In this document: piece by piece, positions 29,630 to 49,639 of the stretch
Layout: each line of letters starts with the position of its first letter
How positions within the stretch are numbered: position 1 is the stretch's first letter
Assembly (NCBI GenBank): GCA_902598825.1
Contig: CACKDD010000002.1
Location: 1 to 64,000 of the forward strand
Direction of reading: 5' to 3'
Origin: an uncultured Pelagibacteraceae bacterium
Lineage (GTDB): Bacteria > Pseudomonadota > Alphaproteobacteria > Pelagibacterales > Pelagibacteraceae
DNA length: 64,000 nucleotides
Notes under the pieces: model-generated
Seen by the model: the letters and a program-made list of their open reading frames with translations, nothing else
Told to the model about the DNA's origin: nothing
The model's database searches: none
Program-made: the position numbers and the translations under genes

Positions 29630-30292
29630 CTAATAACATCTTGCCTTACCATATTTTTTTTTATTAAAGTCCCAAACTGTAATTGTAAATCCTCTGAGAT
29701 TATATTCTGACTTTGCAATTCTACAGGCTAACTCTGCATAAAGATCTGCGTTTGGTGGTGGGCTTTTCAAAAATATCCAGAAAGACTCCTTTTGAGGAAA
29801 ACCAGCCTCAGTATAACCAGGATCATACCATCTCTTGACTAATGCTTTTCTTCTTTCAGCTTCTGAATTATTCGAGGATGAAGTTGAGCTTTGATTTGAT
29901 GATGTTTGTGATGATGAATCATTAGCTTTTGTATTTTCTTTTTTTGGTAAAGATGCTCTTGCCTCAACCAATGTATCGTGCCAAGATTCAAGAGTTCCAT
30001 TTCCAAGTTTGCATAATAAAATTCCACAAGAAACAGGTTCAGAAACATATCTAAATACATAATATTTTTTTGTATTTTCTCCCCAAATAATTTCAGTATC
30101 TATATCTGAATAAAATTCAGACCCTCCACTAGGGATAAACGGATCATCACCAGGGTAAGAAACTATGAACGCATCCTGTAGCTGGCTTTTAGAAATATTT
30201 TTTTTGATTTTTCCACTTGAGACAATACTCTCTGTTGTAGCACAGCCACTCAACAGCAAACCCAGAACCACGATCGCTAAAAGTTTTTTCAT
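29630..30292 (-). CDS. hypothetical lipoprotein
   Basis: Lipobox LLLSGC after hydrophobic N-terminus (MKKLLAIVVLGLLLSGCATTES); Ser/Asn-rich linker. Confidence 0.75.
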   Translation of the reverse strand: MKKLLAIVVLGLLLSGCATTESIVSSGKIKKNISKSQLQDAFIVSYPGDDPFIPSGGSEFYSDIDTEIIWGENTKKYYVFRYVSEPVSCGILLCKLGNGTLESWHDTLVEARASLPKKENTKANDSSSQTSSNQSSTSSSNNSEAERRKALVKRWYDPGYTEAGFPQKESFWIFLKSPPPNADLYAELACRIAKSEYNLRGFTITVWDFNKKKYGKARCY

Positions 30293-30987
30293 TTATCTAA
30301 ATTATTCATTCTTTGACTTCGAGCCAAAACAAAGTTCGATAAATTATACTTATATTGCTTATATTCTTCAATATCATTTGGTAAAGGATAATTCTCGAAA
30401 GATTTAAAAGGTATAAAATATTTAATAGATGAATAATCATTAGAGACTAAATCTTGAAGTAGAAAAAAATCAACATATCCCTGAAAACTTTCAAACAAAT
30501 TAAAGAATTGTTTATACCTCTCAAAAGTCTCATTTAATGGACTGTCCTCTTTAATATAATATCTTCTAATACACTCTAGTGTTAAATCAAATCTATCTCT
30601 TATCTTTTTATTAACCCCTCTTGCTCCATTAATTGTCATTTGATTATTAATTCTTTCAGATGGAAAAATTATATAGCCACCTATTGTGCTACATAAAGAA
30701 ACGAATTTCTCTAACTCCTTTGTATCTATTTTTTTAACAATATTCGTTGTACTTTTTATATTGCTATAAGTATGTGCAATTGAGTCACTCGATAAAACAA
30801 ATTCACCTAGATCTGATTTATGATGAAGTCGCATTGGAATAGTTTCATCTAGTTTAAATAACAAACCATTTGGGAGTTTTTTGCTCCACAAGAATTTATG
30901 ATAATTTCTTAGAGTGGGACTATGACTATCAGGGTCCCTACCTTTTGGTGTATCACTATAAACGTTAAAGCTAGTATCTATATTCAC
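30289..30987 (-). CDS. hypothetical protein (MNIDTSFNVYSDTPKGRDPDSHSPTLRNYHKFLWSKKLPNG...; possibly DUF6994-like, from memory)
   Basis: Full-length ORF overlapping the next gene by 4 nt; no confident family call. Confidence 0.65.
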   Translation of the reverse strand: MNIDTSFNVYSDTPKGRDPDSHSPTLRNYHKFLWSKKLPNGLLFKLDETIPMRLHHKSDLGEFVLSSDSIAHTYSNIKSTTNIVKKIDTKELEKFVSLCSTIGGYIIFPSERINNQMTINGARGVNKKIRDRFDLTLECIRRYYIKEDSPLNETFERYKQFFNLFESFQGYVDFFLLQDLVSNDYSSIKYFIPFKSFENYPLPNDIEEYKQYKYNLSNFVLARSQRMNNLDK

Positions 30988-32681: not shown

Positions 32682-32767
32682 TGGTGCCCTCGGCCAGACT
32701 CGAACTGGCACTCCGCAAGCGGCAAGGATTTTAAGTCCTTTGTGTCTACCAATTTCACCACGAGGGC
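32682..32767 (-). tRNA. tRNA-Leu (anticodon TAA)
   Basis: Reverse complement GCCCTCGTGGTGAAATTGGTAGACACAAAGGACTTAAAATCCTTGCCGCTTGCGGAGTGCCAGTTCGAGTCTGGCCGAGGGCACCA. Confidence 0.95.
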
Positions 32768-32840: not shown

Positions 32841-33242
32841 TTAAATAGTTTTCTCTTTTAATAAATAATAGTAAAAATAAATTGTTAATATTTCTCTAAT
32901 TATTACACCAATCGACTTTGAATTCCACCCAGCTTCATTTGCTAAAGATATATCTCCAATAAGTACTAACAAAATAGTGATGAGGGGTAATATTGTTACA
33001 AAAATTATATCATAATTCTTATAAATTTTTGTAACTGCTAATGCAGATACATATCCTGCAATTAAACCGGAGATAACAGTCGGTCCAGTATTAATAATAA
33101 AATCTGGTAATCTTAAACCCATAACTTTATCATAAATATAGTATAAAACTTCGCCTATATAAAAGCCTATCCCTTGGGATAATATCGTAACTGGAATAAA
33201 AATAATTGAAACTAATACGCTATAAAACTTAATTTTCATCAT
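32841..33242 (-). CDS. small polytopic membrane protein, unknown
   Basis: 133 aa, several hydrophobic segments. Confidence 0.6.
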   Translation of the reverse strand: MMKIKFYSVLVSIIFIPVTILSQGIGFYIGEVLYYIYDKVMGLRLPDFIINTGPTVISGLIAGYVSALAVTKIYKNYDIIFVTILPLITILLVLIGDISLANEAGWNSKSIGVIIREILTIYFYYYLLKEKTI

Positions 33243-33670
33243 CTCTTTTTAATTTTTTTTCTTTTTTTAATTACTTTTTTAAAAATTTTCTTAGTCTTTT
33301 TTTTAGGTGTAACATTTATAGGTTCATCATTTGAAGCAGCTGTTGAGCTAAAATTATTCGAAAAACTATTTTCATTTTTCCTGTCAACTAATGTTGAAAT
33401 AGCGCCAGTAACCAATGCTGGAACTATAAAAAGAAGTCCCGGTGCAGCAAAAGCTAAAGCACCATACCAAGGCCATCCCCAAACATCTAATGCGCCAAAA
33501 AAAGTTCCAATAGTAAGTGGAAACATTATTCTAAAGAAAAAACCTATAAATAAAGCACCAAAAGCAAATCCTGATCCTAAATGATATTCAATACCAATGA
33601 ACCCAACATAGATTTGAACTATACCAACTATGAGAAATAATATTCCTCCTAAAACACCAAATGCTGCCAT
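33239..33670 (-). CDS. small membrane protein with very basic C-terminal tail
   Basis: Hydrophobic segments, then KKKTKKIFKKVIKKRKKIKKR. Confidence 0.65.
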   Translation of the reverse strand: MAAFGVLGGILFLIVGIVQIYVGFIGIEYHLGSGFAFGALFIGFFFRIMFPLTIGTFFGALDVWGWPWYGALAFAAPGLLFIVPALVTGAISTLVDRKNENSFSNNFSSTAASNDEPINVTPKKKTKKIFKKVIKKRKKIKKR

Positions 33671-33683
33671 ATAATTTTAATAC

Positions 33684-34550
33684 TTATCTTTTTATTTTTA
33701 ATGGGTTTTTACCAAATCTATTTTGTTTACTATCACCAGCTGTACAATACAAAACAATAAGATAAATTGAACAACCAAATCCTATTACTGCAAAAATTAT
33801 CTCAAAAGTTGTTTGACGATTTACAGAAAATATTGCCTCAATAACACCAGCTGGTAAAGGAAGTGCTACGAACCACCCACTTTTATTAATATCGTGTAAG
33901 CGTCTTACTGCAACACTAATCCAAGGAATTATAATTGCTATTATAAAAATTGCTAATAACCAAAATAATTGACTAGCAGCAAATATTAAACCAAATCCAA
34001 TGGCATAACCAATTACTATAAAAAGAACAAAATACCAATATTCAGATCGACTTGCTCTTCCTTTAAAATCAAAATATTTTTTAAAACATATTTTTACAGA
34101 TTCAGGTAAATTTAATCCCATATCTTCCTCCTCTTCCTCATTATCTTTATTAAATTTTTCTGTATAATAATCTGAATTATCACCAGTGTCTTCATTATTG
34201 TCCTCATCCACCTCTACTTCTTCCTCTACAATTTCTTCAACATACTCATATTCATCATCATCTTGAGCTTTTGTTTTTGACTCTTTTTTGATTTCTTCTT
34301 GAGGTGCAGAATTTTCTGATTGAGTTATAAAAGACTTTATATCTTCTTCTGGTTCTGGTGTATTTTGAATTTCCTCTTCTTTAATAAAGCTCAATCCCTC
34401 TATTTCTGATGCTTTTGTCCACTTCCCTCTTAATCCAGCTTTTACTTTAGTGCTTTCATTAATAGTATCACTATCAACCAAACTCTGTAAACTTTCTAAA
34501 GAATTAACTGAAATTTCTGAACCATTATTATCTATAAATTTATAAATCAT
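33684..34550 (-). CDS. DUF805 membrane protein with N-terminal GYF_2-like domain and acidic linker
   Basis: FDFKGRASRSEYWYFVLFIVIGYA...ISVAVRRLHDINKSGWFVALPL...GDSKQNRFGKNP is DUF805-like; N-terminus MIYKFIDNNGSEISVNSLESLQSLV...LRGKWTKASEI. Confidence 0.8.
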   Translation of the reverse strand: MIYKFIDNNGSEISVNSLESLQSLVDSDTINESTKVKAGLRGKWTKASEIEGLSFIKEEEIQNTPEPEEDIKSFITQSENSAPQEEIKKESKTKAQDDDEYEYVEEIVEEEVEVDEDNNEDTGDNSDYYTEKFNKDNEEEEEDMGLNLPESVKICFKKYFDFKGRASRSEYWYFVLFIVIGYAIGFGLIFAASQLFWLLAIFIIAIIIPWISVAVRRLHDINKSGWFVALPLPAGVIEAIFSVNRQTTFEIIFAVIGFGCSIYLIVLYCTAGDSKQNRFGKNPLKIKR

Positions 34551-34551
34551 A

Positions 34552-36459
34552 TTAAGTTGGGAAAACTATTTTTCCTGCTCTTTCAACTACAAATCCAGCA
34601 CCACCTTTTCTTAATACAGATGGTTCACATGTATAATTAGTTCCAGTTGAAATAGAAAACACGCCTTTAAATTCTCTACTAGCTTTTTCAAAATCTAAAT
34701 TCATATAAGTTGCCATATTTGATCTCACAGTAGATCCAGCAAATGCAAAGTATTTATCACTAAAAGTTACACACCATATATCTGCTTTTTCAAATGCTCT
34801 TGGTGAACTTACTAAAATAGTTTTAGTTCCATCTTGTCTTTCTTTTCTACTTAAAGCTAAACCATTCCACTTTTGTTTAAATTTAGCAACTTTAGCAAAA
34901 TCATCTAAAGCCTCTCTGTAGTCGGAAACTAATTCATCATATTTTGCAGCTATAATTTCCTCTTGTGATTTAGGTTTTTCTTCAAGTACTTGCTCTTGTT
35001 GTGAAGCTCCAGATTGTCCCGATCTAGCTGCAGCTCTACCTACAGATTTAATTTGTTCTGATGTATCTTTTAATTTTCCTTCAAAATCGCTTTTTAATGA
35101 TCCAACCTTTTTATCCGCTTCTTCTTGTAATTTTTGTATTCTTCGATTGTTAAAATAAACATAAGCACCAACACCACTAATAACTAGAAATACAATAATA
35201 CCAATAATAATTAAATTCCATGGAAGCTGACTTCCAAATTCTTCCTCCAAGTTATTAATTTCTAAAATTAAAGTATCAATATTGTTAACTATATTAGTTT
35301 CAGCCTCTTTAATCTCAGCACTCAAAGCACCAATCTTATCACCTTGTTTTATATTGAGTTTTGAATTTTCTAATCTTTCCCAACGAACAAAAAACCCTTT
35401 CTTTTTATTCGTGAATTGTCTCTTTTTCTTTCCTTTGGCCACATCATCTCTAAGATTTTCTAAATCTTTATAATTTTTATAATTTTTACCTTTAATTCTT
35501 TTTGTTGCTTTGAATTTGGTTTTAAAATCATCTAAAATATTTTCTGATAAAAACGCCCTTTTAGCTGATCTTAAGGCTTTGGCTTTTTCTTTTAATTCAT
35601 TTTTTGATCTATCAACGTCCTCTAGTTTGTCCTCAACTTCTATTATTTTTTCTTTAAAATCATTTTCAAATTTCTCATAATCAATCTTTAATTGTTTGTA
35701 TTCGTTATTGATTTCTGCAATTTGATCGTCAAAAGTATTAATTTTTTTATCAATTTTATCTAAAAGTTTCTGTTGGTTTGCTGCTAACCAATCCTTCTCC
35801 TCTTTAGCTTTTTTATTTGCCTCTGCTTTTTTTTCTTCCTCTACTTTAATTCTTTTTTCCTCATCAATAATGAATTGTGCTTTTGAATATATCAATTTAG
35901 TATCTTCAACAGCTAAACTAATTGCTCCAATTTCAAATATATCATTTCCAATTTCTGATTTTCTGTTTTCTCTTCCATTGATAATTGCAATTTGGTCATA
36001 TAATTTTGCCGTAGATGAATTTTGAGAAATCTTAAATACCTTTAATTTACCTTCTTGTGGTTTTTCTTGGACACAATAATAAGCCAATAATTGCTCAACA
36101 GAATACTGTGAGCTTATGTAGGGCATTTTTTTAATGTTTTTTAATATTGAAAAATTTAAAGTATCAGGGGCATTTTGAAATTTATTAGAATGATATGAGT
36201 TTATTTCAAAAATTGATTTTTTCTCTACCTTTTTATTACTTTGTTCTTCTTCATTTTCAGATTTATCTATGATGGGTATTTTTCTTTCATCTACATCTGC
36301 AGTACAATATCTAGTTTGATAATCTTTTTTTTTATCTCCTTCGTTTTTGTCTATTGATATTGAGGAAGTTCCATTTTTATGAAAAGCAAAACTGTTAGAA
36401 TTAATTAATAAGATTGATAAAAATATTGTTAAAGTTATTTTTATTAAAGATTTGTACAT
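34552..36459 (-). CDS. large membrane-spanning coiled-coil protein
   Basis: Signal-like N-terminus; long charged helical stretch; TM LPWNLIIIGIIVFLVISGVGAYVYF; second globular C-terminal part. Confidence 0.7.
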   Translation of the reverse strand: MYKSLIKITLTIFLSILLINSNSFAFHKNGTSSISIDKNEGDKKKDYQTRYCTADVDERKIPIIDKSENEEEQSNKKVEKKSIFEINSYHSNKFQNAPDTLNFSILKNIKKMPYISSQYSVEQLLAYYCVQEKPQEGKLKVFKISQNSSTAKLYDQIAIINGRENRKSEIGNDIFEIGAISLAVEDTKLIYSKAQFIIDEEKRIKVEEEKKAEANKKAKEEKDWLAANQQKLLDKIDKKINTFDDQIAEINNEYKQLKIDYEKFENDFKEKIIEVEDKLEDVDRSKNELKEKAKALRSAKRAFLSENILDDFKTKFKATKRIKGKNYKNYKDLENLRDDVAKGKKKRQFTNKKKGFFVRWERLENSKLNIKQGDKIGALSAEIKEAETNIVNNIDTLILEINNLEEEFGSQLPWNLIIIGIIVFLVISGVGAYVYFNNRRIQKLQEEADKKVGSLKSDFEGKLKDTSEQIKSVGRAAARSGQSGASQQEQVLEEKPKSQEEIIAAKYDELVSDYREALDDFAKVAKFKQKWNGLALSRKERQDGTKTILVSSPRAFEKADIWCVTFSDKYFAFAGSTVRSNMATYMNLDFEKASREFKGVFSISTGTNYTCEPSVLRKGGAGFVVERAGKIVFPT

Positions 36460-36461
36460 TT

Positions 36462-39400
36462 TTACTTAAGTTTTAATTTACCACTAGTAACTTCATTAAT
36501 TAATTGTTTTAAACCTTGGATAAATACTGGTTCAATTATTGAAGATGTTTTTTGTAATTCAGCTAAACTGTCATCACCTTCGACAGATTGCATATTCTTT
36601 TTAAGATCTTGAGCTCTAGCCTGACCATTTTTTAACTCTGCATTAATTTTTCCTTCTAAATCACCTTCAAATTTTTTTGTAAGTTTGACTGGTATTTTTG
36701 AATAAGCTTGTAAATATTTTAAGAAAGTTTTTAATTGTGAAATATCTTTTACACGCCATGCACTATCTACAACTTTATTAAGTCCTGAAACTGTTCCTAT
36801 TTTATCTTTTCCAACCACAATATCTTCACCCAATACTGTTTCATGAGATCGATCTGTTAAATCAAGATCTGTTGCACCAGTTTTATCAACAAGTAAACCA
36901 TAAGAAACCTCATGTTTTGGGGTATCCGTAAATACGATTCCAATACTAGTAAAAATTCCGTTAGTTACTTTAGAAACCATTTTAGATAGGCTTTCCTGAT
37001 CTTCACTGTCTTCAAAAACAACTTTATAAAGTGTACTTGCTTTTCCACCTAAACAAATTCTAAGTGATTTAGATTTGTTAGCACCAGATTGAAATTCTCC
37101 ATTTTCAATTAAATGATTAAGAACTTGTGAAACATAGTAAAGAATTCCTGATAAAGCTAATTCAGTTAAATCCTTAAGCTCCTTCCCTTTTTCTTTACCA
37201 CTAAAAATATCAAATTTCTTTTTAAATGCTTCACCAAATTGTGGGCTGTTAACTAATAATTCAATACCATTAGCTAATTTAGCTTTATTGGTTTTAATAC
37301 TTTGTAAAGTTTGATAACTTTCTAATAATAAATCATCATTTCCACTAATTTCTTTAATTAATGTTAAATTGTTAGTTAAATAATTTATTAAAACATCTTT
37401 ACCAGCAAGCTTAAACGAGTTTCTCCATAGTAGTTTAGTATCTTGCCAAATTGATAAATCTGAAGTCCCACCTCCTATATCAATTGTGACTACATTTTCT
37501 GTGAAAGGAACTTCTTGTCCTTTTGCAAAATATAGTGCACTAGAAATACTTTCAGTTTCAAAACCTGTTTTTTCTTGAGTTTTATAATTTTCATCATGTA
37601 AGCCAATATTAACAGCTCTTCTTGTTATCCTTTTAAAAGCTCTTAAATGGTCAGTATTGTATGCTTCAGGATAAGAAAAATTAAAGGTTAAATTTTCTCT
37701 TTTAACCCCATTCGCTGCAGCTTCTACAGCTGCTTGTAATACTGCTTGAGAAACAAAATATTGTACTTTTGTACGACTTTGTTCAGCTTCATCCCATTTT
37801 AAATTAAATTTAAGTGGTCTTTTATCATCAGGTAAATCTTGGATTGCATACAAAACTTGATCTACGTAGTAAATAAAATTACTTCTGAAAGGTAAATTTT
37901 CAACTGTAGACTCTTTGTACGCTCTTTCTCTAAGGATTGTCATGAAAGGAATAGTAACTAGTCTACTTGGAACAAACTCTTTATGGGCCTGCATAACTTC
38001 TTCAATCTCTTCTTCATCAGTTCCAGGCTCATATGGAAGATTTACTCTATTTTTATAGTTTAATTCCTTAGGGTTTTCTTTGTTCTCTTTAAAATAGACA
38101 CAAGAGTTTGTTGTACCAAAGTCTATACCAACAGACCATTGATTACTTGTTTCTTGAACTTCTTGAGCATCTGGAAATAAAATTAAGCCAACATCTACCC
38201 TCTTATTATGTTCTGTATAAGATTTTCCACCTGATTGAGTTGCAACGTTACAAAGAATGGCCTCTGGTGAAGATCTTAAAGTTCTAAGCTCTGTGACTGC
38301 AGTTGTTTGTTGAATTGGAATTTCTTCACCAATTACTTGATGTGAATGCATCATATTATCAATAAACTTAACTTTGTCATCTCCAGACAAGCTCTCTAAT
38401 TTATTTCTAATATCACTTACTGCAAAAATATTTTTAGGCAAAATGTTTACCTGAGCATTACCATCATAGAAAAAGAAATATTGATCCCAATTTTCAAATT
38501 TAATATCAGGCCAAACACTAAATCCAAGCGGTACCCCTCTATTTTTAACTACATCTTTAGCTTTATAAATCTTTTCTAAAGTATAATTCATAGTGTTACC
38601 CTTTTCACTTACGAACTCTAAATAAATAACTACTTTATAGTTATCACCATCAGGTGTAACTATGCAGTTTGTTGATAGTGATTTTGGATCCATAAACATT
38701 AACAAAGCACTATTTACTGGATAAGCAAATTGGTTACCGTCGCTTGAATGTTCTTTTAATTTTCTATTATCTCCTGCAAACACCACTAATTTTTCAGTAA
38801 ATATTGTCTCTGGTGTTAGATATATGTAACCTTCTTTCTCACACTCATTTTTTAATGTTTTAGAAAGATTTTCGTCTTGTCTTAAAGAGTTAAGAGAATA
38901 ATTATTCCACACTCTAATATCAGATAAAGTTTTTCCTGTTGATTGAGCAACCCTAAAGTCTGCAAATATTCCACCTTTAATTTGATCTTCAAACTCTGGT
39001 CTAATTTTTAAACCACAATCAAATTTAGCATTTTGATCTGTAGCTCCAATAAAGATTTGTGCTAAACGATCGTAAACAGGTTGAGCTGGTAAATTAAGGT
39101 TCACTTTAGTTGGTGTCCAGCTAGAAAACTCTACATTCCCTACTTTTGCATCACAAGAACTTTTAAATTCCTGAAGTCTACCCATTACAGCATTAAATAC
39201 TTCCATGTTAGAAGGGCTCAAGCTTTGAATGCCATTAATTAAATTTCCTAAGTAATGAGATAAAACAGCATATTGCTCATTTCTCATATCTTTAGCGTTA
39301 CAAGGATCTTTTAAAAAACCATCTTCATACCAGGGTAATTTTCGAATACTTTCAATAGACGTATAGTCCCTTGCAGCTGCAACCATCGTATATGGATTGA

Positions 39401-39884
39401 TAACTGCTATAGCACTTTTGTTAAAGTTAAGAACACCAATAGCATTCCAATCTTGACCTTGGGCCATAGTATCTTTCGGAATTACATCAAATAAAATTTT
39501 TCCAATATGTGCATAATTTGAACCAGCAGGTGCACCACCTGTAAATGGATTATTTTTAATGTCTTGAATGTTTACTATGCTGGAGTTTAATTCATAAATA
39601 TGTTTGTAGTAAGGAGCTAGTGCTAGTAAAGCCAATGTTCCTCTCCACTCATCTACAATAGATTTACTGCCATCAACTAATCCATTTCTAACAATTAAAA
39701 CTCTTGCCCAAACATCAGGAACTGAATTAATATCTGCCGCAGATACCACTTCTTCACCACCCATCTTTAAGCCTTTAGCTAATTTTTCTAAAAATGTAGC
39801 ATCTTCTGCTTTCCACTCACCAGAACTAGCTATATTTGGAACTTGGTTCTGATCATTTAACGGCGGTAATACTTTTCTAACCAT
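36462..39884 (-). CDS. 1140-aa protein: unknown N-terminal region plus C-terminal HSP70/actin-like ATPase region
   Basis: Phosphate-1 WSVGIDFGTTNSCVYF and phosphate-2 VVTIDIGGGTSDLSIW motifs of the actin/HSP70 superfamily. Confidence 0.8.
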   Translation of the reverse strand: MVRKVLPPLNDQNQVPNIASSGEWKAEDATFLEKLAKGLKMGGEEVVSAADINSVPDVWARVLIVRNGLVDGSKSIVDEWRGTLALLALAPYYKHIYELNSSIVNIQDIKNNPFTGGAPAGSNYAHIGKILFDVIPKDTMAQGQDWNAIGVLNFNKSAIAVINPYTMVAAARDYTSIESIRKLPWYEDGFLKDPCNAKDMRNEQYAVLSHYLGNLINGIQSLSPSNMEVFNAVMGRLQEFKSSCDAKVGNVEFSSWTPTKVNLNLPAQPVYDRLAQIFIGATDQNAKFDCGLKIRPEFEDQIKGGIFADFRVAQSTGKTLSDIRVWNNYSLNSLRQDENLSKTLKNECEKEGYIYLTPETIFTEKLVVFAGDNRKLKEHSSDGNQFAYPVNSALLMFMDPKSLSTNCIVTPDGDNYKVVIYLEFVSEKGNTMNYTLEKIYKAKDVVKNRGVPLGFSVWPDIKFENWDQYFFFYDGNAQVNILPKNIFAVSDIRNKLESLSGDDKVKFIDNMMHSHQVIGEEIPIQQTTAVTELRTLRSSPEAILCNVATQSGGKSYTEHNKRVDVGLILFPDAQEVQETSNQWSVGIDFGTTNSCVYFKENKENPKELNYKNRVNLPYEPGTDEEEIEEVMQAHKEFVPSRLVTIPFMTILRERAYKESTVENLPFRSNFIYYVDQVLYAIQDLPDDKRPLKFNLKWDEAEQSRTKVQYFVSQAVLQAAVEAAANGVKRENLTFNFSYPEAYNTDHLRAFKRITRRAVNIGLHDENYKTQEKTGFETESISSALYFAKGQEVPFTENVVTIDIGGGTSDLSIWQDTKLLWRNSFKLAGKDVLINYLTNNLTLIKEISGNDDLLLESYQTLQSIKTNKAKLANGIELLVNSPQFGEAFKKKFDIFSGKEKGKELKDLTELALSGILYYVSQVLNHLIENGEFQSGANKSKSLRICLGGKASTLYKVVFEDSEDQESLSKMVSKVTNGIFTSIGIVFTDTPKHEVSYGLLVDKTGATDLDLTDRSHETVLGEDIVVGKDKIGTVSGLNKVVDSAWRVKDISQLKTFLKYLQAYSKIPVKLTKKFEGDLEGKINAELKNGQARAQDLKKNMQSVEGDDSLAELQKTSSIIEPVFIQGLKQLINEVTSGKLKLK

Positions 39885-39886
39885 AA

Positions 39887-41431
39887 TTATAGCTCACATG
39901 ATCTAAAGAGAATATCCATAAAAATACCTAAACCCTTTTGATCTCTATTAACTTTTTTATAACAAATGTTACTCATAACATTTAAAAGTTTTAAATTTTT
40001 ACTGTCATTAATTAATGTATTGAATTGATTTTTTTCAGATGAATTTAGTTTTTCTTTTATGTTAACTCTCTTAGAAGTATTTTTAGCTGAAAACTCTGAG
40101 AAAAACTCAGCAGCTATTAGATCCATTTTTTGATCAGTATTGACAACTGTAGAGTATTGCATATCTGTAATCCAAATGAGAACATCTTGACAATATTCTT
40201 GCATGGAAGAAATGATTTCCTGATTATGTTCATGCCCTATTTCACAAGCTTTAGATTCATCATTATAAGTATTTTTATAAACTAATCTTTTAAACCAGTT
40301 TTCATTTTGATATTTCTTAATTTTACTCCAACTTCCAGTTAATGCTGGGCCATACATCCAGTTATAAGAAAAAGCAAACCTAATAAGTTTTGATAAGCTT
40401 TCTTTTGAATTTAGATCTGCAGACACATTTGGAATATCACTCCATAAAATATCTGATGTCTCATTTTTACCAATATGAAATATCTCTTGAGTATCATTAA
40501 TCTTATTATCTTCACTAAAGAATTTTAAAGCACCTAAAGCTGCGTAAAGCTCAGGGAATAAAGGAGGATTGTTTTGTAAATTTCCACCCATTTTAAAATT
40601 AGCTAGTTTTGATAGAGGATCCCATCCTGTTACATAGACTTGATCAAAAATTTTATCATATTCAAATAATTTAGAATAATATTGAAGCGCTCCTTTGGTT
40701 TGATCTAAAAATTCTTCAGGTCTTGCAAACAATTCACCTTCCATATTTTCTTCAGGAACTTGATAATTAAAATAAGGAAGCATCAATGCCCCACCTAAAT
40801 GAAAGTTTGATGTTACGTTTTTTTCTTTTTGAATTTGTTTAATTCTTCTTGCTATATTTGGAAATCCTGCAGCACCTGTTCCACCAAAGATTGAACTGAT
40901 TATAAATACTCGGACTTCTTCACCACCTCTTGCAGCATCTATAGCTTTATATATTTGTGACCAAAAAGGATCATCCTCATTAGCAGTTGTTGCAAGCATT
41001 GCTGCTGCTCCAATGTTAGGTCTTGCTCTAAAGCCTTCTGATAGATTTTGTTTTTTCTCCTCAGGATCATACAAACAATCCATCAAACCCTTAACTTCAG
41101 GTTTTAATACATTATAAGAAATTACTTCTTCTAAAGTGGGGTCCGCACCCTTCAAAGGTAACCAAACAGAATCATTATTTGTAATGATATTAGTTTTGAA
41201 AAGATCACTATCTTCAGCTAAATCATTTTTACCCTCATCTCTAAGCGTGCTTCTTAAATTCATATATTTAGAAAGTAAGATTTTTGTTCTACTTACATTT
41301 CCATTAGCTTCATCTTGATCAACCATTCCAACCCAAAGGTTTCTTGGACCAAGACCTGATGCACAACTGTGTAGTAAATGCTCTAAACATTTCGCACCTG
41401 TTCCACCAATTCCAATTATAAAATTTTTCAA
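39887..41431 (-). CDS. tubulin/FtsZ-like protein (Tubulin_2-type)
   Basis: N-terminal MKNFIIGIGGTGAKCLEHLLHSCASG and glycine-rich FGGTGAAGFPNIARRIK, matching the tubulin signature pattern. Confidence 0.75.
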   Translation of the reverse strand: MKNFIIGIGGTGAKCLEHLLHSCASGLGPRNLWVGMVDQDEANGNVSRTKILLSKYMNLRSTLRDEGKNDLAEDSDLFKTNIITNNDSVWLPLKGADPTLEEVISYNVLKPEVKGLMDCLYDPEEKKQNLSEGFRARPNIGAAAMLATTANEDDPFWSQIYKAIDAARGGEEVRVFIISSIFGGTGAAGFPNIARRIKQIQKEKNVTSNFHLGGALMLPYFNYQVPEENMEGELFARPEEFLDQTKGALQYYSKLFEYDKIFDQVYVTGWDPLSKLANFKMGGNLQNNPPLFPELYAALGALKFFSEDNKINDTQEIFHIGKNETSDILWSDIPNVSADLNSKESLSKLIRFAFSYNWMYGPALTGSWSKIKKYQNENWFKRLVYKNTYNDESKACEIGHEHNQEIISSMQEYCQDVLIWITDMQYSTVVNTDQKMDLIAAEFFSEFSAKNTSKRVNIKEKLNSSEKNQFNTLINDSKNLKLLNVMSNICYKKVNRDQKGLGIFMDILFRSCEL

Positions 41432-41997
41432 AATCCCCCCGGTAATTTATTTGCAAATAAAACAGAAGATCTAGCAAATCTAGCAGTTCCTAAAAGCACA
41501 CCTAAATAATATGGTAGTACATAAATAATTAAAGACATTGAATAAATCCAAACATGTCCACCAGTACCAATTAAATCAGCTGTGGAATACATTGTGGTGC
41601 CTGTAAAATACCAAACTATACCAAAAACTGACCCAACAAATATTCCTGAAAAAACTAACCAGTGCAAGGCATAAATTTTTGCTTTACCTGGGGCATCAAT
41701 ATTTAAATAATGACTAACAACAGACCAAGCAATAGTCATTGTGGTCGTAAAAATTATTAGAGTTAAATTCATATGAAAGAATAATTCAGTAAAAAAATTA
41801 GTCGAAATTTCTGCAAAACTTTCAAATCCTAAATTTTCATAATTTTCAGCAGCTATTATTTTATCATCAAAAAAAGCTACTATATTGCTATCAGGTCCTG
41901 GATCAGAAAATGATCTAATTATCAAATATATACTAATCCATCCAAAACTTGCCAGACCAGCAAGAGTGTAAATGATTGATTGAATAATATTTTTCAT
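41428..41997 (-). CDS. polytopic membrane protein, unknown
   Basis: 189 aa, about four hydrophobic segments; overlaps the tubulin-like gene by 4 nt. Confidence 0.65.
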   Translation of the reverse strand: MKNIIQSIIYTLAGLASFGWISIYLIIRSFSDPGPDSNIVAFFDDKIIAAENYENLGFESFAEISTNFFTELFFHMNLTLIIFTTTMTIAWSVVSHYLNIDAPGKAKIYALHWLVFSGIFVGSVFGIVWYFTGTTMYSTADLIGTGGHVWIYSMSLIIYVLPYYLGVLLGTARFARSSVLFANKLPGGF

Positions 41998-41999
41998 AT

Positions 42000-43370
42000 T
42001 TATTTTGTTAAATTAAAATCTAATGCAATACTGGCTATTAATGTTGGTTCAAATTCATTGTTTGCAACAGAATTTAGTTGTCTAATTAATTTAGTTAAGT
42101 TTAAGGTTTTAAACTCTACAGGGTTTCCATCTTTAAATTCCTCTGCCTCAGATGGTCTAATCGACCATTCTTTAAATGTTTCTTCAGATATGGTTCCTGG
42201 TTTTTCAGCATAAATTTCTGCAACATAAAAATATCTCATACCTCTAAATAGTTTCTTTAATGAAACTTCTTTAAACATTTGAAGTCTTAAAGTATTTTCA
42301 TTCTGTTCCCATTTACTTATTTGCTCAAATTTAGATTTTCTCCAATTGATATCTTTACATTTTGGTTCTTGACTGACCCAAAGGCTTTCTTTAACTTTAA
42401 AATTTGAAACTCCAGTAGATCCTGGAACAATTATTTCAGAATTTTTAATTAGAAAATTAAGTTTTCTTTTTTTATTTGTATTAAATGTGAAGATTGGCAA
42501 ATTATTTGATGAGTAATCAAACTTAAATTTTTCTGCATTTGAAATATTTTTTATAGATTTTTCTGAAATTAATTTTTTGTCATTTAAATTTTGTAAAATG
42601 GGTGTGCTTGTAATTAAAGAAAATTTATATTTATCCTCTGGATCTGTGAAATGTTGTTCCTCTAAATTTTTTTTGACTTGATTTATTTCTTTTTGATCAC
42701 CTATTATAATAATGTAGAATGGCCTCTTCTGTGCTTCGGTATAAGATACAGTTCCACCTTCTCTTGTTGGAATGTCATAAATAGTTCCATTAAATGAACT
42801 CATCACACCTATAATGCCAACTGATTTACCTTTTTTTAATATAGACTTTAAAGGTTTTGTTAATTGACCTAATGTTCCGCCTACTAATTGATTATCAGCC
42901 AAAAATAAATCTGTTACAATTATATATGTTCCATCAGGATTAGCTTTTGCCATCTTAAAAGGTAAATGAATTTTAGATTCTTGGTTGTTACATTCAGATG
43001 CAGCACCTGTACATTCATAAAATCCTGGTTTAATTACCTGTGCAATTTTATTTTCTTTAATTGGTTTAATTGTTTTTCCAAAGCTATGATAATAGGTTTT
43101 GCTACCTACATTTTCAGCTATTTGTTGTAAGTCATCGATTACATTTACATAAAGATTATTTTGTCCTGGTTGGTCCTTTGCATAACCTTGCATACTCAAA
43201 CTTTGATCAAAGTATATAAAGACTGATTTATCTTCACTTTCCTCTGCAGATTGACTTGATGTTGTGGACTTTGAAATTTCAAACTCAGGGTAACAAGTAT
43301 CTTTTGCATTTACCGATGTTGAGAAAACCAACAAAAAAGCCACTAAAATTCTAACAAAAATTCTTTTCAT
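42000..43370 (-). CDS. secreted von Willebrand factor A-like protein
   Basis: Signal peptide MKRIFVRILVAFLLVFSTSVNA; MIDAS-like VFIYFDQSLSMQGYA and YIIVTDLFLAD. Confidence 0.7.
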   Translation of the reverse strand: MKRIFVRILVAFLLVFSTSVNAKDTCYPEFEISKSTTSSQSAEESEDKSVFIYFDQSLSMQGYAKDQPGQNNLYVNVIDDLQQIAENVGSKTYYHSFGKTIKPIKENKIAQVIKPGFYECTGAASECNNQESKIHLPFKMAKANPDGTYIIVTDLFLADNQLVGGTLGQLTKPLKSILKKGKSVGIIGVMSSFNGTIYDIPTREGGTVSYTEAQKRPFYIIIIGDQKEINQVKKNLEEQHFTDPEDKYKFSLITSTPILQNLNDKKLISEKSIKNISNAEKFKFDYSSNNLPIFTFNTNKKRKLNFLIKNSEIIVPGSTGVSNFKVKESLWVSQEPKCKDINWRKSKFEQISKWEQNENTLRLQMFKEVSLKKLFRGMRYFYVAEIYAEKPGTISEETFKEWSIRPSEAEEFKDGNPVEFKTLNLTKLIRQLNSVANNEFEPTLIASIALDFNLTK

Positions 43371-43475
43371 ACTCGTTATGATTTAATTTCTATAAAATAG
43401 ATCTTAGATTTAAATACTTCCCTATGTAAAGAATAAAAGCTAAGCTCAAAAATATATAATAAAAACCAGATAATT

Positions 43476-44531
43476 ATGAATTTATTTATAAATATTTGCT
43501 CAAGATTGACTCTTATTTTACCTTTATTATTGCTTATTTCATGTGGGGATAGCGGTAGTCAACTATCTAAAGGGCATAGAGATGCCATCAAAATTCAATG
43601 TGAGGACTCATCAGATCCTAAAGCTTGTGGACTTGAGGTTAGACAAAACTTTTTAGAAGACGGCAATGAATTTATTATATTGGATGATGGTGAACTAAAT
43701 GATGATCAGATTAGAAAAATAAAAATGGAATGTATTAGATCTAAAAAATTTGGTCTTGAAACTTATAATAATTGTTTAGGTGAATATAAAACTGCTGCAT
43801 TAGATGGTAAATTGTTTGAAAAGAAATTTGCTGCCAAACCTAAAAACAATATTGAAGATCTTGAAGAATCTGTAGTTTATATTGAAATGGTTTTAACAAA
43901 TTATACCAAAGAGAGAGAAATGGTATATGGCACAGGTTCAGGTGTAATAATAACTGACACAGAAATAGCAACGAATTGTCATGTAGCATTAGCTAAAGCA
44001 GATAAGGAAGTTCTTAAATATGCACAAGATGAACTTAAATGGAACACAGCTAGTGATGATTTACAAGAAAGGATTTGGATTAAATTATTAAATGGTGAAG
44101 ATTGGGCTGAAGCAAAGCTGACAAAAAAAGATGTTAATAAAGATATTTGTATAATAAAACACAATCCAAAAGAGCTATTCAAAGTTTCAATGAAACCAAT
44201 AGAAAAATTTACATCCTTTAAAAAATTAAAAAAAGGGAGCTTTGTTAGAGCAATGGGGTCACCTGGAGGATTAATTGGTCATACATCTACTGGGGATATA
44301 CAATGGTTAGGAACTGCAGAACAAATGCAAAATACTTTCCCAACTATATTAAAACAGTTCGATAAAGATACAAAATTTATAGTCCATGGTGCTAAAATTC
44401 ACTCTGGTAGTTCAGGTGGACCTTTGTTTGATAAAGATGGTTATATTATAGGATTAAACACTTTAATATCTGACACTGCGGCTGAAAATATTGCAGTTTC
44501 TTCAGATCATATTAAAGAGTTGTTAAAATAA
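43476..44531 (+). CDS. trypsin-like (S1-fold) serine protease lipoprotein
   Basis: Lipobox LLLISCGDSG; triad contexts ATNCHVALA, NKDICIIKH, HSGSSGGPLFDKDGYIIGLNTL. Confidence 0.8.
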   Translation: MNLFINICSRLTLILPLLLLISCGDSGSQLSKGHRDAIKIQCEDSSDPKACGLEVRQNFLEDGNEFIILDDGELNDDQIRKIKMECIRSKKFGLETYNNCLGEYKTAALDGKLFEKKFAAKPKNNIEDLEESVVYIEMVLTNYTKEREMVYGTGSGVIITDTEIATNCHVALAKADKEVLKYAQDELKWNTASDDLQERIWIKLLNGEDWAEAKLTKKDVNKDICIIKHNPKELFKVSMKPIEKFTSFKKLKKGSFVRAMGSPGGLIGHTSTGDIQWLGTAEQMQNTFPTILKQFDKDTKFIVHGAKIHSGSSGGPLFDKDGYIIGLNTLISDTAAENIAVSSDHIKELLK

Positions 44532-44533
44532 TT

Positions 44534-45364
44534 ATGAAAAATAGATTTTACGTTTTTTTAAATTACTTACTCCTTTTTTTATCAATAATTGTAATAGCTT
44601 TAATTTTAAGTACAAACAATACTTTTGCACATAAAGTAAAAGATGAAAACGGCAGGATGGTGGAGCATGAACCTATAAAATGTATACCACAAGAAGAAAG
44701 AAACATGGTAGAAAAATATCTTTGCAAAGTTGCTATTAAATCCCATCGTTTATGTAAACAAGATGAACATTGTGCAATTTTAGAAATAGAGAAATTACAA
44801 AAAGAAAATGCTGAACAGGTAGAAAAATTAAAAGGTGTGGGCGATTGTGGAGATCTTCCATTTAATCATAAAGCATCCAAAAAATCAAAAATTTATATTA
44901 AAGCAAGCAAAGATAGTAAAGTTATTGGTGAAGTTAATAAAGGTCAAAAATTATTATTCTATGCTGTCTCTACAAAAGATAAAAATTTCTCAAGGGTAAA
45001 AATAAGAAAAGATGATATTTGTGCAGAGGGATATATAGAGTCTAAATATTTAGTTAAAAAAGACTCAGAGGATACTGTTGTAAAAGTTGGTCCTAAATTA
45101 ATTGAAATTAATGAACCTAAATGGGCCAAAGAAGGAAAATTGATACTAGTAGATGCCGAGGGCACAGTTTCTATTAGCGGGGCTATTCAAGAAGGTAAAA
45201 TAGATCAAATTATTATTAATGAGGAAGAAGAAATAATTAATGGTGATAATACATTTACTTATCTACTTTTTGTTCCAAATAGTGGAGCTGAAATCAGAAT
45301 AGTAGGAAATAAAAATGGTAAAAAAGTAAAGGAACTAATCTTTACAATTAAAGTAGGAAATTAA
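44534..45364 (+). CDS. membrane-anchored/secreted SH3b-like domain protein
   Basis: N-terminal TM; SKIYIKASKDSKVIGEVNKGQKLLFY...FSRVKI...EGYIESKYLVKK resembles bacterial SH3; beta-rich C-terminus. Confidence 0.65.
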   Translation: MKNRFYVFLNYLLLFLSIIVIALILSTNNTFAHKVKDENGRMVEHEPIKCIPQEERNMVEKYLCKVAIKSHRLCKQDEHCAILEIEKLQKENAEQVEKLKGVGDCGDLPFNHKASKKSKIYIKASKDSKVIGEVNKGQKLLFYAVSTKDKNFSRVKIRKDDICAEGYIESKYLVKKDSEDTVVKVGPKLIEINEPKWAKEGKLILVDAEGTVSISGAIQEGKIDQIIINEEEEIINGDNTFTYLLFVPNSGAEIRIVGNKNGKKVKELIFTIKVGN

Positions 45365-45891: not shown

Positions 45892-46683
45892 TTGGTAGTA
45901 ATATTTACAGATTTAGATGGTTCTCTTTTACATCGAGATACTTTTAAGTTCGACTCAATTAAAGACTATATTAAAAGTCTAATAAATATTGGAATAATCA
46001 TAATTCCGAATTCTAGTAAAACTGAAAAGGAAATTGAAAAATTTAATGAAGAGCTTGGTATTGAACTTCCCTATATTTCAGAAAATGGTTCAGTTATTCG
46101 TGGACTAAACTTAATTAACCAAAATTTTCCAAATAAAATAATTCTTAGTAGAGAAAAAGAAGAATTACTAAAAATTTTTAATGAAAAGACTCCTGAAAAA
46201 TTATTAAATAAATGTGTTCAAATTTCTAAACTGAGTAAAAAAGAACAAGAAAAAATATTTGGACAAAAAGATGATAGACTTAAAGACGCATTACAAAGAA
46301 AGTATACTTTACCCTTTTTATTTAATGGGAATAATTCTGAAAAAAATAAATTATTAAAAGTCTTAAGTTATAATTCTTTATCATTACAGGAAGGTGGTCG
46401 TGTTTTAAATCTTTGTGATAACATTAATAAAATAAAGTCAATGAATAGAGTAATTAAAATCTTAAAAAAAACTGAGGATAAAATTAAGACTATTGCTGTT
46501 GGAGACAACTATAATGATCTCGAAATGTTAAAAAATAGTGACATACCATGTTTAGTTTTCAATGATCAATTTAAAATGGACAGAATTAATATTGATAATA
46601 TTATATTTTCTAACAAGCCATCACCTGAGGGCTGGGCTGATGTGATAAAAATAGCGCTAGGAAAAATAGGATATAGTGATTAA
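45892..46683 (+). CDS. HAD-family mannosyl/glucosyl-3-phosphoglycerate phosphatase
   Basis: VVIFTDLDGSLLHRD HAD motif; AVGDNYNDLEML; PYISENGSVI; adjacent GpgS-like gene; TTG start. Confidence 0.8.
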   Translation: MVVIFTDLDGSLLHRDTFKFDSIKDYIKSLINIGIIIIPNSSKTEKEIEKFNEELGIELPYISENGSVIRGLNLINQNFPNKIILSREKEELLKIFNEKTPEKLLNKCVQISKLSKKEQEKIFGQKDDRLKDALQRKYTLPFLFNGNNSEKNKLLKVLSYNSLSLQEGGRVLNLCDNINKIKSMNRVIKILKKTEDKIKTIAVGDNYNDLEMLKNSDIPCLVFNDQFKMDRINIDNIIFSNKPSPEGWADVIKIALGKIGYSD

Positions 46684-46691
46684 AATTTAAA

Positions 46692-47912
46692 ATGAGCGAA
46701 TTTTCCCAGAATGGAATAATTTCTACCCTGCACGACTTTGGTACAAGGTCAACAACCGAAATTGAAAAAGATCTTTTTACATTTTCAAAAGAAAGAAAGA
46801 TGGAGTTAATTTTACCATGTCTTTATTCAGAATTAGAAGGTACGGCACTTCCCAATATAGTCGAAGAAATTAGTAAGACAAAATATCTAGACCATATCAT
46901 CGTAGGTCTTGATAGAGCTAATGAAAATCAAGCCAAAAAAGCTTGGAAATTTTTTAAAAAATTAAAAACCTCTTTCTCAATTTTATGGAATGATGGACCA
47001 GGTTTAAAAAAACTTGATAAAGAATTAAAGAAAAATGATCTATCTCCAAATGAGTTGGGTAAAGGTAGAAATGTTTGGTATTGTATTGGCATGTCTATAG
47101 CGAGAGATACTGCTCGTTCAGTTGCATTGCATGACTGCGATATAAAAACTTATGATAGAAGAATGCTAGCTAAACTTTTTTATCCAGTTGTAAATCCTCT
47201 TTTTAACTTTGAATTTTGTAAAGGATATTACCCAAGAGTTGCTAATAATAAGATGAATGGAAGAGTTGCTAGATTACTTGTTTTTCCTTTATTAACTGCT
47301 TTAGAAAAAACCATTGGTAAAAGCGATTACTTAGAGTTTATGAAGTCTTTTAAATATCCATTAGCTGGTGAGTTTTCATTTAGACGTAACGTTTTACCTG
47401 AACTAAGAATATCTTCAGATTGGGGTATTGAAGTAGGAATTCTTTCTGAAATGCAAAGAAGCTTCTCTCCTCAAAATATTTGTCAGGTAGATTTGGCTGA
47501 TACTTATGACCATAAACATCAAGTTTTATCTATGGACGACGAAACTAAAGGTTTATCAAGGATGTCTATAGATATAATAAAAACCTTTATCAAAAAACTA
47601 GCTACTCAAGGTAATTCTTTTAGTAGAGAAAAATTCAGATCTCTAAAAGCAACCTATTATAGATCTGCGTTAGATTTAATTGATATATACAGAAGTGATG
47701 CTGATATGAATGGGCTTAAATTTGACTCTCATACTGAAGAAAAAGCTGTTGAACTATTTGCAATAAATATAATGAAAGCTGGAGAAGCTTTTATCTTAAA
47801 TCCAATGGATACACCGTTTATACCGACTTGGAGTAGAGTGAAGAGTGCTATTCCAAACTTTTTAACTCGATTAAAAGAAACAGTAAATGAAGATAACAAA
47901 AAATATAGATAA
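46692..47912 (+). CDS. glucosyl-3-phosphoglycerate synthase-like glycosyltransferase
   Basis: LPCLYSELEGTALPNIVEEI...GKGRNVWYCIGMSIARDTARSVALHDCDIKTYDRRML. Confidence 0.82.
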   Translation: MSEFSQNGIISTLHDFGTRSTTEIEKDLFTFSKERKMELILPCLYSELEGTALPNIVEEISKTKYLDHIIVGLDRANENQAKKAWKFFKKLKTSFSILWNDGPGLKKLDKELKKNDLSPNELGKGRNVWYCIGMSIARDTARSVALHDCDIKTYDRRMLAKLFYPVVNPLFNFEFCKGYYPRVANNKMNGRVARLLVFPLLTALEKTIGKSDYLEFMKSFKYPLAGEFSFRRNVLPELRISSDWGIEVGILSEMQRSFSPQNICQVDLADTYDHKHQVLSMDDETKGLSRMSIDIIKTFIKKLATQGNSFSREKFRSLKATYYRSALDLIDIYRSDADMNGLKFDSHTEEKAVELFAINIMKAGEAFILNPMDTPFIPTWSRVKSAIPNFLTRLKETVNEDNKKYR

Positions 47913-49639
47913 TGTTATCTCAGATAGATCAAAAAAAAATTAAATTAAAGCTTAAAAATATATATAGACACCATTTATCAGAGATTGAGATTAGTGATTG
48001 TTGCAAAGAAATTACAAAATCAATTAATAAATTTAATAAAAAAAGAAATAAAAAAAAAAAGATAATTTCAGAAAAAACCTCAATAGTTATATCCTATGGA
48101 GATAGTCTTTTTTCTAGCTCACAAAGACATTTATTAAAAAATTTTCAAAGTTTTTTTCAAAAGAAGTTAAGTAAATATTTTAATACAGTGCACTTTTTAC
48201 CTTTTTATCCTTCAAGTAGTGATAGTGGTTTTGCAGTAAAAGATCATTACAAAATCGATAATAGGCTTGGTAATTGGTCAGATATCAAAAAATTTTCAAA
48301 AAAAAATGATATAATGGCAGATGTAGTAATTAATCATTCATCAGCTAGAGGTCTGTGGTTTAAAAACTTTCTCAAAAAGAAAAAGCCAGGAAAGGATTAT
48401 TTCTTAACAGTTAATTCTAATTTTAATGTATCAAAAGTAATTAGACCTCGAGATCATCAATTGCTTAAAAAAATTAATATTTTTAAAAAGTCCGAGTATT
48501 TGTGGAGAACTTTCAGTCCAGATCAATTGGATATGAATTTTAAAAATCCTTCAGTTTTATTGAGATTCATAAAAATTATGATTAATCTTATAAATCATGG
48601 TGTAACAATCTTTAGATTAGATGCGATTGCCTACCTTTGGAAAGAGAGTGGAACTAAATGTATTAACTTAAGAGAAACACATGAAATAATAAAGCTTTTA
48701 AGAATAATTTGTAGTTTATTAAATGTTGAAAGTATTATTGTTACTGAAACAAATTTGCCAGAAAAAGAAAATATAAGTTATTTTGGAAATGCTGATGAAG
48801 CTAATTGGATTTATAATTTTTCACTACCTCCCCTACTAATTCATAGTTTTTTATTTGAAAATAGCTCATACCTTAACAGTTGGAACAAAAATTTACCACA
48901 AACCAAAAAAGGAAATAGCTATCTAAATTTCATTGCTTCACACGATGGTATTGGAATGAGACCAGTTGAAGGTATTATGAATAAAAATAATAAAGACAAG
49001 TTTCTTAAAAGATTAAAAAAAAACGGCTCAAAATTTTCATATAGGAAAGTTCAAAGTAAATCGAAAAAAGTTTATGAGGCAAATATTACAGTTTTTGATG
49101 CGTTAAAAAAATCAGACAATGACCCAAAAGGTAAATTCTTTTTGGAAAGATTTATTTCAGCTCACTCGATTATGATTTCTTTCGAAGGAGTACCAGCAAT
49201 ATATTTTAACTCTTTATTTGGAACATCTAATGATGAGGCTAAATATATAATAACTGGAAATAATAGAGATTTAAATAGATACAGGTGGAACCATAAAAAC
49301 ATTAATGAAAAATTGAAAAATACGAAATCAAAACAAAGTATTTTTTATAAAAATATTACCGACTTGTTAGAAATAAGAAGAAAACAAAAGGCTTTTCATC
49401 CGAATGGGTTAAGATCTAATATCAATATGGGTCCAAAAATATTTTGTTTTAAGAGACAGAGTTTAGATAAAAAACAAACTATTATTTGTATAACTAACTT
49501 ATCCTCTAAAAATCAATTTCCTAAAATTGATAAAAATTTTATTAAATGGAAAAACCTCTTAAAACCAATTCCAAAAATAAAAGATAAAAAATATTTTGAA
49601 CTCAAACCATTTGAAACAATATGGTTATCTAATATCTAA
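47912..49639 (+). CDS. GH13 sucrose/glucosylglycerate phosphorylase-like enzyme
   Basis: VHFLPFYPSSSDSGFAVKDHYKID; DVVINHSSARGLWF; FRLDAIAYLWKESGTKCINLRETHEI; FIASHDGIGMRPVEGI. Confidence 0.8.
   Translation: MLSQIDQKKIKLKLKNIYRHHLSEIEISDCCKEITKSINKFNKKRNKKKKIISEKTSIVISYGDSLFSSSQRHLLKNFQSFFQKKLSKYFNTVHFLPFYPSSSDSGFAVKDHYKIDNRLGNWSDIKKFSKKNDIMADVVINHSSARGLWFKNFLKKKKPGKDYFLTVNSNFNVSKVIRPRDHQLLKKINIFKKSEYLWRTFSPDQLDMNFKNPSVLLRFIKIMINLINHGVTIFRLDAIAYLWKESGTKCINLRETHEIIKLLRIICSLLNVESIIVTETNLPEKENISYFGNADEANWIYNFSLPPLLIHSFLFENSSYLNSWNKNLPQTKKGNSYLNFIASHDGIGMRPVEGIMNKNNKDKFLKRLKKNGSKFSYRKVQSKSKKVYEANITVFDALKKSDNDPKGKFFLERFISAHSIMISFEGVPAIYFNSLFGTSNDEAKYIITGNNRDLNRYRWNHKNINEKLKNTKSKQSIFYKNITDLLEIRRKQKAFHPNGLRSNINMGPKIFCFKRQSLDKKQTIICITNLSSKNQFPKIDKNFIKWKNLLKPIPKIKDKKYFELKPFETIWLSNI

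Follow-up and report, generated by a model that had tools for sequence, protein, structure and literature searches.

A conserved mobile gene core joining tubulin-like and HSP70/actin-like proteins in SAR11 and other bacteria, with a possible role in biological conflict

A stretch of 64,000 nucleotides from an uncultured Pelagibacteraceae bacterium (contig CACKDD010000002.1, positions 1 to 64,000, hereafter the window), a member of SAR11, the most abundant bacteria of the ocean, contains at positions 32841-45364 ten genes (g1-g10) arranged around a core of four. The core encodes a vWA-like protein, a small membrane protein, a tubulin-like protein and an HSP70/actin-like ATPase, and its order is kept in three phyla. 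Judging by gene content and arrangement, it is very likely that these genes represent a real, conserved, mobile and envelope-spanning system. The reading preferred here, held tentatively at just under an even chance, is that of a mobile NTPase machine spanning the envelope, which would sense outside and respond inside and would most likely serve biological conflict or anti-phage defence. The features considered are as follows (ORF, open reading frame).

42000..43370, minus strand: g8, secreted vWA-like protein, 456 aa, signal-like N-terminal helix, first core gene (ORF, motif, hydropathy)
41428..41997, minus strand: g7, small multi-transmembrane protein, 189 aa, second core gene (ORF, three hydrophobic segments by hydropathy, position, alignment)
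39887..41431, minus strand: g6, tubulin-like (Tubulin_2) protein, 514 aa, third core gene (PF13809, FGGTGA-x-G loop)
36462..39884, minus strand: g5, HSP70/actin-like ATPase, 1140 aa, fourth core gene (phosphate motifs, PDB profile, AlphaFold/Foldseek)
34552..36459, minus strand: g4, lineage-variable membrane component with signal-like N-terminus, coiled coil and internal transmembrane segment 416-434 (ORF, hydropathy)
33684..34550, minus strand: g3, weak GYF_2-like N-terminus and DUF805 membrane domain (Pfam)
33239..33670, minus strand: g2, small membrane protein at the position of variable cargo (ORF, hydropathy)
32841..33242, minus strand: g1, small membrane protein at the position of variable cargo (ORF, hydropathy)
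43371..43475, no strand: divergent intergenic region, 105 bp, presumed promoters (ORF coordinates)
43476..44531, plus strand: g9, putative lipoprotein with HtrA/trypsin-like protease domain (Trypsin_2, HtrA-type models, alignment)
44534..45364, plus strand: g10, exported SH3b-like protein (SH3_3, N-terminal hydrophobic helix)
32682..32767, minus strand: tRNA-Leu(UAA), boundary of an insertion hotspot beside nadK (tRNA and neighbour comparison)

Outside the window, the order vWA-like, small transmembrane, tubulin-like, HSP70/actin-like (g8-g7-g6-g5) was found in the SAR11 loci L004-L006 and L008, in another family of Pelagibacterales (L009), in two other Alphaproteobacteria (L017, L018), on three cyanobacterial plasmids (L020-L022), in Prevotella (L023, Bacteroidota) and in four IMG/VR contigs (L024-L027) detected blind with the tubulin profile, L026 and L027 being putatively viral by their IMG/VR label. 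In L020, from Gloeothece, the vWA-like gene is inverted and lies on the strand opposite to the rest of the core, and the locus L007 is incomplete, beginning inside the HSP70-like gene. Outside SAR11, the small transmembrane gene was in most cases assigned from its position, size and transmembrane content, not from a BLAST match, as was the vWA-like gene of L025. The co-occurrence of the tubulin-like and HSP70-like genes elsewhere, named as a check in the initial annotation, proved strict in the neighbourhood search: searches seeded with either gene recover the same loci, except L025 in the IMG/VR set and the Prevotella locus in the plasmid set, the latter being recovered by the tubulin query only. 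The trees of the tubulin-like, HSP70-like and vWA-like proteins concur on the SAR11, cyanobacterial and Bacteroidota-type groups, with tree-distance correlations of 0.98 (tubulin/HSP70), 0.92 (HSP70/vWA) and 0.90 (tubulin/vWA). The arrangement is not a matter of chance, as three phyla share its order. By this comparison, the conserved unit is the four genes encoding the vWA-like, g7, tubulin-like and HSP70-like proteins. In L025, a core-like operon (L025:53-19978) encodes an HSP70-like protein enlarged to 1504 aa. Two tubulin queries gave no match in the phage records.

The best matches to the window come from single-cell genomes of Pelagibacteraceae. All ten ORFs were recovered with the coordinates and strands of the initial annotation, including its single minus-strand operon. 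The run at 32841-43370 comprises eight genes with intergenic spacings of -4 to 13 nt (g8-g7, 2; g7-g6, -4; g6-g5, 2; g5-g4, 2; g4-g3, 1; g3-g2, 13; g2-g1, -4), which supports one tight operon from g8 to g1. A scan for promoters and terminators gave signals at or below shuffle expectation and was uninformative about the presumed promoters in 43371-43475.

The folds of both putative NTPases agree with those first proposed. The g6 protein matches Tubulin_2 (PF13809) above the Pfam cut-off (E = 5.3e-11), and its FGGTGA-x-G loop shows no variation between SAR11 and the other phyla, Prevotella included, in a cross-phylum alignment; the alignments of g6 and g8, used as profiles against the PDB, gave no useful match. 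The g5 protein is below Pfam cut-offs, and a profile of its relatives matches HSP70/MreB structures in the PDB (E = 5e-6). Its phosphate motifs D588-x-GT and D802-x-GG are invariant across phyla in the alignment, and an AlphaFold model of residues ~690-985 matches HSP70/MreB structures in Foldseek (BiP and MreB, 3e-7), with 223 PDB matches at E<=1e-3. In these motifs and structural matches g5 resembles the HSP70/MreB/FtsA superfamily; it differs in that the ATPase fold sits nearer the C-terminus, preceded by a region of ~575 aa which is conserved among relatives and has no assignable fold (AlphaFold pLDDT <50 over ~580 aa), and in having no canonical substrate-binding domain. The label 'HSP70' covers the ATPase fold only: Pfam gave no HSP70 match, the NCBIfam DnaK model aligns just 19 residues, and by the models of both collections the canonical substrate-binding half is missing. 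The PADLOC candidate-defence family PDC-M61B was considered for g5 (E = 0.0013) and rejected, the match being confined to residues 525-631 around the first phosphate motif.

The g8 protein carries a MIDAS-type motif, D55xS57xS59-M60-x-G62, and TD154L, conserved across three phyla in most relatives and degenerate in L025. Pfam gave no match, vWA included. The low-confidence model has a Rossmann-like core, and its Foldseek matches are sub-threshold, several vWA proteins being among them (complement C2a, factor B and PTMP1, at E 0.03-0.25). Since the core is of low confidence and the Foldseek E values are weak, the vWA assignment is probable, not proven; of the secreted vWA-like protein described initially, the motif and the N-terminal helix stand, and the fold is poorly backed. 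DUF805 in g3 was found as annotated (E = 2.1e-23), with GYF_2 below the cut-off (E = 0.003). The g9 protein matches Trypsin_2 (E = 8.8e-16, Pfam) and HtrA-type models (NCBIfam), has H169, D223 and S313 in the alignment and a lipobox-like N-terminus read off the sequence; the g10 match to SH3_3 is below the Pfam cut-off (E = 0.0014).

Topology was assigned by hydropathy. An export-type hydrophobic helix is present at the N-terminus of g8, g9, g10 and g4; g7, g1, g2 and g3 are multi-transmembrane proteins, and g4 has one internal transmembrane segment, its coiled coil being read from sequence composition. The g5 and g6 proteins are expected to be cytosolic because they have no transmembrane segment. 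This mixture of exported, membrane and cytosolic members supports a predicted topology spanning the inner membrane and agrees with the envelope-spanning layout suggested at first.

The components outside the core behave differently. The initial annotation regarded the whole gene set as one machine; the conserved unit is the four-gene core, to which individual lineages add DUF805, g1, g2 and the protease/SH3 pair as accessories. SAR11 relatives keep the order protease, SH3, vWA, g7, tubulin, HSP70, g4, DUF805, and the genes after DUF805 differ in every SAR11 locus. The trypsin-like and SH3b-like pair, described as diverging across 105 bp, is indeed present and divergent in the window, as in L004 and L005; in L006 and L008 it is co-directional with the core and upstream of it. 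Partners of SH3-like type are found again in Alphaproteobacteria (L009, L017, L018). In genome G482, an SNase nuclease-like gene is located 316 nt upstream of the gene in the protease position, whose protease match is weak. In L008, a 536-aa protein after DUF805 (L008:16428-18038) shares 32% over 161 aa with part of g4, which suggests a duplicated coiled-coil component.

Nonsynonymous divergence (dN) between the window and L008, at saturating synonymous divergence (dS), is low for HSP70 (0.07) and tubulin (0.10) and high for vWA (0.42), g7 (0.54), protease (0.51) and SH3 (0.59), the fast-evolving g4 being within 0.42-0.59. The contrast between slow cytosolic NTPases and fast exported or membrane partners would suit an engine that stays constant while its outward face changes, and is consistent with an arms race.

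In SAR11 the module is rare, being present in 3 of 198 genomes of the order; wider sampling gave 2 of 386 genomes of the class and 3 of 399 of the phylum, these counts including its own genome and one weak match, in a 1931-aa frame. Among the window, L004 and L005, dS of the core genes is mostly 0.08-0.6, compared with 1.2-2.0 for the adjacent nadK, and it is unequal between genes of one locus: g7 gives 0.08 against L004 and 0.88 against L005 (values against L005 reach 1.0). The pattern therefore points to horizontal transfer of the SAR11 module with mosaic exchange. Upstream of tRNA-Leu(UAA)/nadK, the hotspot is hypervariable, with ~25 different neighbour genes in 30 SAR11 genomes, including those of autotransporter, methyltransferase, aminotransferase and caspase-like proteins. 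Carriage on plasmids, location in this hotspot, low dS and the position of the L025 core-like operon, ~6 kb downstream of a phage terminase large-subunit gene, together support the mobility of the core. At the same hotspot of another genome, a caspase-domain (Peptidase_C14) protein was observed (L032:1-1269), and near the hotspot in the window a full-length DUF6994 protein is encoded (30289-30987, E = 2.4e-89).

The strongest single link to defence is provided, at the level of predicted genes, by L026 and L027, where the core runs on with gaps <=12 nt into ZorA-like, ZorB-like, DUF4357 and exported DNA/RNA nuclease genes (L026:8299-19343, also in L027). The L026 ZorA-like protein and ZorB-like MotB/OmpA protein match PADLOC models (E = 6e-5 and 2e-7); the DUF4357 protein matches the candidate-defence model PDC-S14 (E = 1.6e-24), and the nuclease belongs to Endonuclease_NS, NucA type. 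ZorA/ZorB form a peptidoglycan-binding motor required for phage defence (PMC11890865), and the L026/L027 operon likewise has MotAB-type motor genes of the peptidoglycan-anchored type with a long cytoplasmic tail. Unlike in Zorya, ZorA/ZorB are absent from the window genes (PADLOC) and from most relatives, the pair occurring only in L026/L027 (L026 tested), and descriptions of Zorya include no core of tubulin or HSP70 type.

As the initial annotation stated, FtsZ/tubulin relatives beside vWA proteins have been proposed to remodel membranes: in the systems described, FtsZl1 is partnered by vWA, GTPase and OmpA proteins (Makarova and Koonin 2010, PMC2875224), and a P-loop GTPase or Ser/Thr kinase partner is frequent, not universal, and most FtsZl1 members have a coiled coil and a helical C-terminal domain. 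The present module resembles these operons in a Tubulin_2-type protein beside a probable vWA protein, membrane partners and patchy distribution, but differs in its fixed HSP70/actin-like partner, small transmembrane protein and 514-aa tubulin-like protein; Pfam gave no P-loop GTPase or Ser/Thr kinase match in g1-g10, a kinase lying near the core in L021 only. The DO-GTPase/GAP1-N2 conflict systems have either tubulin/vWA or HSP70 themes, reported not to overlap, and cyanobacteria almost lack these systems (Kaur et al. 2020, PMC7159879). Shared features are tubulin, HSP70, probable vWA, SH3-like and GYF/trypsin-like modules near the membrane, mobility and variable components; in contrast, the present module unites tubulin and HSP70 and occurs on cyanobacterial plasmids. 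No match was found in g1-g10 to DO-GTPase or GAP1 (Pfam, NCBIfam), to FNIII (Pfam) or to the AAA+ ATPases of MoxR-vWA ternary systems (Pfam). On the features tested, the module is outside the DO-GTPase family; it is grouped here with the Tubulin_2/vWA systems as a variant, with a working mode most likely like that of conflict systems. The earlier claim of an undescribed system stands in part. No exact match to a characterised system was found, and in the literature searched the four-gene unit is not described beyond the neighbouring combinations of PMC2875224 and PMC7159879, although an unlabelled listing among the 2010 families is possible. Because those combinations are in print, novelty is limited, as far as searched, to this combination and order.

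Sequence and shared gene order support a core in which an exported vWA-like protein and a small multi-transmembrane protein are joined by two cytosolic ones, the GTP-binding tubulin-like protein and the HSP70/actin-like ATPase. In the proposed mechanism, the vWA-like protein and lineage-specific periplasmic modules (SH3b-like protein and protease in SAR11, OmpA/MotB-like protein in one other branch) would detect envelope disturbance, and the transmembrane proteins would relay the signal inward. The tubulin-like protein would then assemble, the ATPase driving or resetting assembly, and the response would be executed by swappable downstream membrane proteins, proteases and nucleases. The role would most likely be biological conflict, chiefly anti-phage defence, and for such a function the odds seem about even. 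Several points weigh against it. Exported proteins often diverge fast without an arms race; the ZorA/ZorB matches are modest and limited to one branch of two closely similar loci, and MotAB-type motors have non-defence roles too. Several distant loci have no obvious toxic effector, the core proteins gave no convincing match to PADLOC defence families, and the hotspot also carries ordinary metabolic and surface genes. On the whole, the interpretation given in the initial annotation is partly supported.

Other explanations compete with a conflict function. It is conceivable, though rather unlikely, that tubulin-like filaments at the inner membrane, with the vWA-like protein and the ATPase as their regulators, form a membrane-remodelling or vesicle machine with a cell-biological role. 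This has been proposed in print for FtsZl1/vWA operons (PMC2875224), and nearly every locus has membrane proteins; such a housekeeping role fits poorly with a very sparse, mobile module on a hotspot and plasmids and with varying downstream proteases and nucleases. A role in envelope stress and proteostasis, with the HtrA-like protease and the HSP70-like ATPase handling damaged envelope proteins on a tubulin-like scaffold, appears improbable. SAR11 loci do carry the HtrA-like domain, and, as read from sequence, L004 and L006 each have among their cargo another protein bearing a trypsin-type GNSGGP motif, to which L006 adds an M16-like peptidase; however, the missing substrate-binding half is accompanied by the lack of a DnaJ/GrpE partner, and a scan of operon genes from the cyanobacterial and IMG/VR loci revealed no protease.

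Still less probable is a machine directed at other cells, for secretion, adhesion or contact-dependent action. The export of vWA-like and SH3b-like proteins, a PKD-like domain and exported nucleases in some loci would suit it, but the loci scanned had no recognisable outer-membrane channel, component for injection or gene for immunity. Maintenance of plasmids or other elements by TubZ- or ParM-like filaments, suggested by the pairing of tubulin and actin folds and by cyanobacterial plasmids, is highly improbable: the SAR11 copy sits in a chromosomal island, exported vWA and transmembrane core proteins are ill-suited to DNA segregation, and the L020 plasmid has its own separate ParA/ParB pair.

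Elsewhere in the window, a HAD-type phosphatase, a 406-aa protein and an alpha-amylase-family protein are encoded in series at 45892-49639, possibly for glucosylglycerate-type sugar metabolism.

We know of no characterised bacterial system in which tubulin-fold and actin/HSP70-fold proteins are obligate partners. It is possible, if doubtful, that the module represents a hitherto undescribed class of bacterial immune machines present in at least three phyla on plasmids and islands, where tubulin-like and actin/HSP70-like NTPases would make up a single envelope-linked unit, combined with swappable periplasmic sensors, a Zorya-type motor among them, and effectors. As a strictly ordered mobile module in three phyla, it offers a concrete system for learning how divergent tubulins (Tubulin_2) work, and, if its function is defence, it would connect cytoskeletal NTPases to Zorya-type envelope sensing.

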